A stretch of DNA of 32,778 nt from Burkholderiales bacterium (lineage in GTDB: Bacteria > Pseudomonadota > Gammaproteobacteria > Burkholderiales > Burkholderiaceae). Below are positions 28,272 to 29,713 of the stretch, piece after piece. The stretch's first letter is position 1; the number at the start of each line of letters is the position of its first letter. The stretch spans positions 1 through 32,778 of the forward strand of contig CANBQJ010000016.1 of the NCBI GenBank assembly GCA_947371645.1, written 5' to 3'. The position numbers and the translations under genes were made by a program. Below the pieces are notes generated by a model. That model was not told the DNA's origin. It did not search any database and worked only from the letters and a program-made list of their open reading frames with translations.

Positions 28272-28742
28272 TCAGGCGACGGACTTCAGCGGTTGCCAGC
28301 GCTCGATCAGATCATGCACCTGGGAGGCGTCACCTTCTGTCCTCAGGCGTTCACGCAACTCACGATCAGACAGCAACTCTGCAATTTCGGACAGGATTTC
28401 GAGGTGGCGTTGCGTGGCCGCCTCGGGCACCAGCAAGAAGATCAGCAGGTTGACGGGTTCGTCGTCCGGGGCATCAAAGGGGATGGCCTGGCTGAGGCGG
28501 ATCACCGCGGCGAGGGGGTTCTTCAAACCCTTGATGCGGCCGTGGGGGATGGCCACGCCATGGCCCAGGCCGGTGGAACCCAGACGTTCGCGTGCGAAGA
28601 GGTTGTCCGTCACGGTCGCACGCGCGATGGCGTGCTGGTTTTCGAACAGCAAGCCCGCGTGCTCGAAGACGCGCTTCTTGCTGCTGGCGTCCACGTCCAC
28701 CAGCACCTGACTGGCGGGGAGGATGGCGGATAGACGGTTCAT
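28272..28742 (-). CDS. ptsN: Nitrogen-PTS EIIA component
   Basis: A 156-residue EIIA-Ntr domain, phosphorylated on a histidine (His67 in VAIPHGRI) by the PtsP-HPr relay. It regulates potassium transport, nitrogen and carbon balance through protein contacts (family knowledge). The sequence starts MNRLSAILPASQVLVDVDAS and covers the whole domain. The gene has its own promoter candidate (28806-28832) behind the hpf terminator, so it need not be co-transcribed with hpf. Confidence 0.95.
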   Translation of the reverse strand: MNRLSAILPASQVLVDVDASSKKRVFEHAGLLFENQHAIARATVTDNLFARERLGSTGLGHGVAIPHGRIKGLKNPLAAVIRLSQAIPFDAPDDEPVNLLIFLLVPEAATQRHLEILSEIAELLSDRELRERLRTEGDASQVHDLIERWQPLKSVA

Positions 28743-28805
28743 CTTGATTCAAGCGGGTGGACGGCTCATGCCTTGTCCCGCTTCCCGAGACGGATGAAGG
28801 GGCGG

Positions 28806-28832
28806 ATTATAGGGACGGACAATGGCTGACAA
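28806..28832 (-). promoter_or_regulatory. Probable promoter of ptsN
   Basis: Minus-strand TATAAT at 28811-28806 matches the -10 consensus perfectly. TTGTCA at 28832-28827 is a fair -35 with a 15-base spacer (TTTGTC gives 16). The start site would be near 28799, leaving a leader of about 57 bases before ptsN. Confidence 0.6.
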
Positions 28833-28871
28833 AGCCAAGTGGGCAACCCTGATTTGAGGGATTCTGCACCG

Positions 28872-28890
28872 CTTGCTGCACCGCAGCAAG
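28872..28890. promoter_or_regulatory. Tight dyad upstream of the ptsN promoter
   Basis: CTTGCTGC (28872-28879) and GCAGCAAG (28883-28890) are perfect arms around three bases. A TTGACA on the minus strand (28896-28891) touches the dyad, but no -10 sits at a proper distance. It may be an operator. The rest of the 341-base gap 28743-29083 holds the ptsN promoter, the hpf terminator and the RNA structures listed next; no gene is visible in it. Confidence 0.35.
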
Positions 28891-28976
28891 TGTCAATTGC
28901 CCACAAACCCCACGCGCCTGCCCCGAGGCCCGCCGTGGGGATCAATGTGCGCCAGCAGCAAACGCGTCAAGCCATG

Positions 28977-29084
28977 AAAAACGGCCCCGAAGGGCCGTTA
29001 ACTTGGTGTCTACCTGCGCTGGCGACCCACTATCAGGTCACACCAAGCACGCTGGAGGAGAGGCTTGCGGCGTCAGCGCGTGCT
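28977..29084 (-). ncRNA. Candidate small RNA from the hpf 3'UTR with CU-rich loop
   Basis: Three stem-loops follow each other on the minus strand right after hpf. Stem 1 pairs AGCACGC with GCGTGCT (29078-29084 with 29046-29052) and carries a 25-base loop containing CCUCUCCUCC (29063-29054), complementary to a Shine-Dalgarno sequence. Stem 2 pairs CTTGGTGT with ACACCAAG (29040-29047 with 29002-29009), with an inner ACCTG/CAGGT stem (29034-29038 with 29012-29016). Stem 3 is the intrinsic terminator. Stems 1 and 2 share two bases, so their ends compete slightly. The pattern of an exposed CU-rich loop, a structured body and a terminal hairpin with a U-run resembles 3'UTR-derived regulatory RNAs. 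Identity is inference. Confidence 0.45.
28980..28999 (-). terminator. Intrinsic terminator of hpf with UUCG loop
   Basis: On the minus strand AACGGCCC-TTCG-GGGCCGTT, followed by further Ts (five in a row including two from the stem). A GC-rich eight-base stem with a stable UUCG tetraloop and U-tract is a textbook rho-independent terminator. It ends the transcript 85 bases after the hpf stop and separates hpf from ptsN. Confidence 0.85.
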
Positions 29085-29437
29085 TATGGGAGAGGAGCGT
29101 CCCAGGATGCGTCCTGGCGCTTGTGTGAAGCATGGTGATGGTCCTGAACACGGTCTTTGTGACGACAGACCTGGCGGTCTAGCTTGTCCATGAGTTGATC
29201 AATGGCGGCGTAGAGGTCTTCGTGGGAGCTTTCCACGAATATGTCTTTGCCCTTCACGTGCAGATTGACTTCGGCGCGTTGGCGTCGGTCCTTTTCCCTT
29301 TGCTTTTCAACGGTGAGCAAGACGTTGATGTCCACGACTTGTTCGAAGTGACGGGTGACGCGATCCAGCTTGGTGAGGACGTACTCACGTAGCGAAGGGG
29401 TCACTTCCAGATGATGGCCACTGATCGTCAAATTCAT
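29084..29437 (-). CDS. hpf: Ribosome hibernation promoting factor (short form)
   Basis: A 117-residue protein of the HPF/RaiA family that binds the decoding region of idle 30S subunits and promotes hibernating ribosome dimers in stationary phase. The ATG at 29435-29437 has an excellent AAAGGAGG seven bases upstream; the longer upstream frame has no family match. The sequence [20 protein letters not shown], the [28 protein letters not shown] strands and [21 protein letters not shown] are family hallmarks. The His-rich tail ([10 protein letters not shown]) is short, so this is not the long dimerising form. The usual upstream partner rpoN is absent; 276 bases without a gene separate hpf from an MFS transporter. 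Confidence 0.95.
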
Positions 29438-29713
29438 GCTGCCTCCTTTCGAGAGCAGAGCGTTGAAGACACACCCAGTTGGCGGGCTGTGGGCCTGAAT
29501 CCGGCTGGGTTGCCAGGGCACCCAAACCGTCAACCGGAAGGTCAGTTTGCGCCTGTCCCGGCCGGATGACAAGTCCATGACATCAGTGTTTGTATGGAGG
29601 TGTGAAGGAACTGGCAGAGGCCTTGTGAGCACGCAATCGGGGCGCTTTTTGTCGCCTCCGATGCCCCCCTTTGGCGCGCACTTGTGGCACCATCGATTGG
29701 CTTTGCCAGGCGC

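Follow-up and report, generated by a model that had tools for sequence, protein, structure and literature searches.

Which part of the RNA that follows the ribosome hibernation gene hpf has been kept by selection, and what might that part do? The window (the whole stretch of 32,778 nucleotides analysed, from a Burkholderiales bacterium) carries three predicted hairpins after hpf, and a sequence-only reading had proposed that the first of them exposes an anti-Shine-Dalgarno loop through which the RNA silences translation. A structured RNA does indeed follow the hpf coding sequence, and its conserved part is the second hairpin, termed stem 2 or the element in this work.

Layout of the hpf locus

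The features of the locus, from the hpf promoter region to hprK, are as follows.

29544..29572, minus strand: promoter-like sequence of hpf, TTGTCA-N17-CAAACT (putative promoter)
29084..29437, minus strand: hpf, encoding a short S30AE / sigma-54 modulation protein, the ribosome hibernation factor (Pfam PF02482, E 4.5e-26 on 29443-29084); start ATG at 29437, as read from the sequence, and stop TAA at 29086-29084
29046..29084, minus strand: stem 1 with its CU-rich loop, variable and lineage-specific
29002..29047, minus strand: stem 2, the conserved element, 46 nt, supported by covariance model R1, pair counts and identity
28977..28999, minus strand: intrinsic terminator AACGGCCC-UUCG-GGGCCGUU-UUU, from the predicted fold
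28804..28813, minus strand: -10-like box CCTATAATCC before ptsN, recognised by sequence position
28272..28742, minus strand: ptsN (EIIA-Ntr), the next gene after hpf (Pfam PF00359)
28151-27189, minus strand: hprK, downstream of ptsN (Pfam PF07475/PF02603)

The element was found in the window and in related genomes, together 36 carriers. In 31 of the 36 carriers, the 150 bases that precede hpf contain a TTGTC-type box separated by 17 nt from CA[CA]ACT, and the same TTGTC-N17-CA[CA]ACT box precedes hpf in 12 of 19 non-carriers examined, both counts being made without a chance control. The spacer is exactly 17 in all 31 matching carriers. The -10 half of the box (CAAACT) is unusual for sigma-70. 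Before ptsN, one of seven -10-like hexamers is present in 79 of 81 hpf-ptsN gaps, again without a chance control, and the -10-like box of the window suggests that ptsN probably has its own promoter. Together, the promoter-like box before hpf, the terminator after stem 2 and the -10-like box before ptsN suggest that the hpf mRNA is probably, although not certainly, monocistronic, and stem 2 would then probably be transcribed as part of its 3' UTR. Measured from the promoter-like box to the terminator, such an mRNA would be roughly 560 nt long. Conservation of fourfold sites at the 3' coding end of hpf was not unusual, so no promoter is indicated there. The U-run of the terminator consists of five U, two of which are paired in the predicted fold. 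A simple terminator scan returned six plus-strand sites, and the hpf terminator, which is visible in the fold, was not among them. Sequences resembling the terminator hairpin (28999-28977) also occur elsewhere in the genomes of relatives, in matches of about 14-24 bases.

The gap between the terminator and ptsN also holds a palindrome, TTGCTGCGGTGCAGCAA, at 28889-28873 on the minus strand. The pattern CTGC-N3/4-GCA occurs in 35 of 81 hpf-ptsN gaps compared to 4.5 expected from mononucleotide shuffles, and in 25 of the 34 gaps that have both it begins 71-77 bases before the last -10-like box. The palindrome resembles a site for PhaR, the PHB regulator. ptsN has been reported to affect PHB accumulation (PMC9049629).

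Stem 1 and the CU-rich loop

The coordinates and pairings proposed for the hairpins were reproduced when checked against the minus-strand sequence. Stem 1 is formed by 29084-29078 with 29052-29046, its 5' arm beginning with the final nucleotide of the hpf stop codon, and UCCUCC is located at 29059-29054 on the minus strand. The predicted pair probabilities of this register are 0.41-0.58, and those of a second register 0.31-0.41. According to the sequence-only reading, the UCCUCC loop of stem 1 would make the transcript a regulatory RNA that silences GGAGG translation starts. Consistent with this, the motif is predicted to be largely unpaired (probabilities of 0.60-0.96) and is rare in the window (five sites on both strands, or 0.0015 expected per 25-nt loop), and the hpf leader was confirmed to carry AAAGGAGG. 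In the relatives, UCCUCC is present in only 2 of the 36 stretches between stop codon and terminator, the window and L119, and in L119 it is at an unrelated place. Five close relatives have CUCAAA in place of UCCUCC. Stem 1 itself (ACGCUG/CAGCGU) is common to 11 of the 36 stretches as judged by eye on the alignment, the other subgroups having an unrelated hairpin or none, and none of the 10 further stretches with stem 1 has the loop. Since UCCUCC is found at that position in the window alone, the loop is private to the window; it is probably incidental. These counts speak against an action through the anti-Shine-Dalgarno loop, which we regard as extremely improbable. Because UCCUCC is rare by composition, a lineage-specific role of the loop may exist, with no comparison in its favour.

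A second CU-rich stretch was seen at 29097-29089 (minus strand), where the last hpf codons hold CTCCTCTCC. In L001 and L002 the sequence reads CTATTCA, and the stretch is absent there.

Covariation and conservation of stem 2

To evaluate the pairing of stem 2, we used a MAFFT alignment (A4) of 30 sequences, 28 of them distinct, from which six carriers with duplicate elements were left out, and a structure of 17 pairs. Standard pairs occupied 92.8% of the cells compared to 89.7% in shuffles, and covariation was 0.161 compared to 0.108; neither value was reached by any of 500 shuffles, which ignore relatedness and can be exceeded by related sequences without structure. Five pairs had changed in both partners, a count that 24 of 500 shuffles also attained, and the number of further pair types was ordinary (269 of 500 as high). 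When the register was slid, 35-41% of cells were paired and covariation was 0.007-0.093. One parsimony reconstruction on a FastTree tree of hpf and ptsN placed double compensatory changes at three column pairs, 3/49, 6/46 and 14/39. The expected conservation and covariation were thus borne out for stem 2, with no counterpart in the anti-Shine-Dalgarno loop.

An inverted repeat may also work as DNA, as a dyad site for a protein, and compensatory changes would preserve a dyad too. On the hpf strand, the pairs of the element include 25 G·U cells compared to 6 A·C, with 28 other mismatches of which 17 are G·A at columns 23/31. The excess of G·U over A·C suggests that the folded strand is likely the RNA of the hpf strand. 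This asymmetry, and the location of the strong copies, which are always 3' of hpf and before its terminator, argue against a DNA site, and we consider that explanation very improbable.

Among the 36 carriers, the element had a mean pairwise identity of 0.804 and the terminator one of 0.956. The corresponding values were 0.533 for the preceding spacer, 0.530 for the 60 bases past the terminator, and 0.538 and 0.573 at the fourfold sites of hpf and ptsN, respectively, showing that the element evolves more slowly than the flanking spacers or the fourfold sites of hpf. The element was seen in lengths of 45, 46, 47 and 49 nt, which disfavours a peptide-coding reading. Collectively, the fixed position, the covarying pairs and the slower evolution are those expected of a structured RNA that lies 3' of a gene and is under selection, and comparison of the carriers shows where the element lies, on which strand, with what predicted structure and how well it is conserved.

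Structure and folding of stem 2

Stem 2 is formed by pairing of 29047-29040 with 29009-29002 on the minus strand and has three tiers, namely an outer stem (CUUGGUG/CACCAAG), a middle stem (CCUG/CAGG) and an apical stem with a GG-NCG-CC core. When stem 2 was folded alone, the z-score was -4.41 and none of 200 shuffles folded as well; for the 110-nt stretch the z-score was -2.69, and 3 of 200 shuffles were as good. Twelve elements folded alone gave z-scores of -1.74 to -4.41, the best fold of one of them (L123) being unlike the common one. In single-sequence folds from the stop codon to the terminator, the five outermost pairs of stem 2 all had probabilities above 0.5 in only 23 of the 36 carriers. 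The minimum outer-pair probability was 0.11-0.45 in the window and seven relatives, because in these folds the outer bases are contested by stem 1, which overlaps stem 2 at bases 29047-29046. The stop-to-terminator stretches of L112, L118, L119, L121 and L122 fold otherwise. Columns 23 and 31 hold G·A in 17 of the 28 distinct sequences, G-C in 9 and A-U in 2, and for those with G·A the modelled apical stem has an ambiguous register. An inverted-repeat search of 28700-29700 (minimum length 12, seed 9) returned no pairs; imperfect stems escape such a search.

The position of this structure, immediately ahead of a terminator and with ptsN downstream, would also suit an attenuator or riboswitch that decides read-through from the hpf promoter into ptsN-hprK. 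From a reading of the sequence, pairing of GGGUCG with the terminator arm CGGCCC is conceivable. However, GGGACG and other variants break this pairing while the terminator arm is unchanged, as seen by eye, and the outer stem and the terminator do not overlap, being 2 or 5 nt apart. In addition, ptsN has a -10-like box of its own and there is one strong site per genome. Inspection of the alignment by eye revealed no conserved, mutually exclusive terminator/antiterminator pairing, and we consider an attenuator or riboswitch quite unlikely.

Distribution of the element

To locate further copies, hpf loci of named species were scanned, taking the best 80 of 517 relatives. A mismatch search detected stem 2 downstream of hpf in the window and in 10 of the best 80 loci; the remaining matches were in other places and had 4-6 mismatches. 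Six of the 10 named carriers from the best 80 loci are labelled Aquabacterium and four have order- or phylum-level names only, and L008, also labelled Aquabacterium, is without the element. Covariance model R1 was built from those 11 sequences, the window included, and scored them at 57-73 bits (window 72) and everything else at 20.1 bits or less. Among the relatives of A. commune, itself a carrier (L005), R1 matched 41 of 149 at E <=0.05, with 44 matches in all. The strong matches (E <1e-5) numbered 35 of the 44, one per genome, and 35 of 35 were between hpf and ptsN; the window and 35 related genomes have the element directly before the hpf terminator. A mobile or repeated element was rejected on the basis of the single strong copy per genome. 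Seven of the nine weak matches were fetched (L126-L132, 3.5-4 kb), and none of the seven had hpf or ptsN. Matches of 23-31 bases were present in three phage records and one plasmid record, and the exact degenerate pattern of the element had no match in viral contigs.

A broader model, R2, gave 5 matches in a family sample of 399, all of them already-known carriers, and 1 in an order sample of 399, which was the centre genome itself. In a class sample of 274 there were 2 matches, the centre genome and a 28.9-bit match (L144) without hpf or ptsN nearby. The large R2 searches used stricter filters, with which weak matches are lost, and the family, order and class samples contained no new strong match to the element.

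In a tree of 55 rows, the 36 carriers and the non-carriers L134, L135 and L136 were on one side of a branch with support of 100/98. Two changes of the element label suffice on this tree, and 17% of 200 bootstrap trees need one; the two changes are readable as one gain and one loss. By eye, L134, L135 and L136 have unrelated G+C-rich hairpin-like sequences after hpf and before the terminator. Two genomes of the clade neighbourhood are outside the carrier count, G040, with hpf at a contig end, and G023, in which no hpf was found. As judged from this comparison of genomes, selection has retained the element in most of the Aquabacterium lineage.

Comparison with known RNA families

The window and seven related loci had no Rfam match at gathering cut-offs in a scan assumed to include the raiA motif (RF03072) and the rmf motif (RF01755), in agreement with the sequence-only reading, which knew of no described element at this position in Burkholderiales. 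The best sub-threshold match in the window was Atu_C3, with 18.1 bits against a cut-off of 100, and Atu_C3 and PhotoRC-I were rejected with scores far below their cut-offs. A literature search of titles and abstract beginnings found no paper on an element of the hpf-ptsN locus.

Two known RNAs are comparable by the genes they accompany. The raiA motif RNA, or ModT, is associated with raiA and resembles the element as a structured RNA tied by name to an hpf/raiA-type hibernation gene, and the rmf motif is likewise a structured RNA of a hibernation gene. The raiA motif RNA is described for Bacillota and Actinomycetota (PMC11706538), and the rmf motif is listed for Pseudomonadales (PMC2864571). 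The Burkholderiales-1 motif belongs to the same order; it has no Rfam number in the table of PMC2864571, so it was outside the Rfam comparison.

The loop had also been likened to those of alphaproteobacterial small RNAs (cuckoo-like / CcsR type). With the anti-Shine-Dalgarno sRNAs of Alphaproteobacteria (αr14 / NfeR1-type), the window shares several hairpins and a C/U-rich loop. The αr14 sRNAs are described as having three hairpins, each with an ultraconserved CCUCCUCCC in its unpaired part (PMC10746234). Measured against that description, the window has one CUCUCCUCC, which is not conserved, and this together with the 2 of 36 count for UCCUCC places it outside αr14. In general layout, the element is like 3' UTR-derived sRNAs and the ProQ-bound 3' UTR hairpins that control decay, having hairpins and an intrinsic terminator at the mRNA 3' end. 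It differs from them in having a three-tier core with covarying pairs, so far encountered at a single gene of a single lineage. The element is real and conserved, has no Rfam entry and is of a known general kind, and any mechanism proposed for it is putative.

Possible roles at the 3' end of the hpf mRNA

We judge the chances to be about even that stem 2 and the terminator are a structured 3' UTR of the hpf mRNA that works in cis, as RNA. The adjacent hairpins of element and terminator would give the message a handle at its 3' end. This handle may be used by an RNA-binding protein, a ProQ/FinO-domain protein being the obvious candidate, or may act through the stability of the hairpins themselves, and its effect would be to protect the hpf mRNA or to set how fast it decays. 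Within the element, runs conserved at 90% are at most 2 nt long where unpaired and at most 4 nt long of any kind. With a longest conserved unpaired run of 2 nt, a structural or protein-recognised feature fits better than a pairing seed. The modelled outer pairs, all above 0.5 in only 23 of 36 stop-to-terminator folds, are a point against a handle.

The main rival to a handle acting in cis is a released small RNA. In this case, an RNase cut near the hpf stop codon would free a stable RNA of ~70-110 nt, consisting of the element and the terminator, that base-pairs with other mRNAs. Hairpins followed by a terminator at the mRNA end are a common layout of 3' UTR-derived sRNAs, and the hpf mRNA has this layout with an element that is conserved and covarying. 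On the other hand, the short conserved runs leave no conserved accessible seed of the kind expected of a trans-acting sRNA, the spacer upstream is not conserved, and the terminator has the short, partly paired U-run described above. We therefore regard a released small RNA as possible but doubtful.

With respect to a protein partner of the handle, ProQ has been reported to bind intrinsic terminators (PMC12001967) and, in Salmonella, to protect the 3' end of rpoS mRNA from poly(A) polymerase (PMC12086684). A ProQ-family gene was present in 18 of 18 related genomes tested. Since three of these genomes are without the element, the presence of ProQ does not discriminate, and ProQ or any other protein that may bind the element is a candidate only. 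A bolder proposal, which we consider unlikely, would see in the element the first member to be described of an RNA class that is specific to the lineage and marks a hibernation-factor mRNA. Here, a putative dedicated partner, either Hpf itself in autoregulation or ProQ, would read the GG-NCG-CC apex, and such recognition would let hpf messages last into stationary phase.

Together, these results point to a compact structured RNA that is located 3' of a hibernation gene and has been retained across most of a bacterial lineage. They also illustrate that a striking motif, such as the anti-Shine-Dalgarno loop, can be incidental beside the part that selection has kept.
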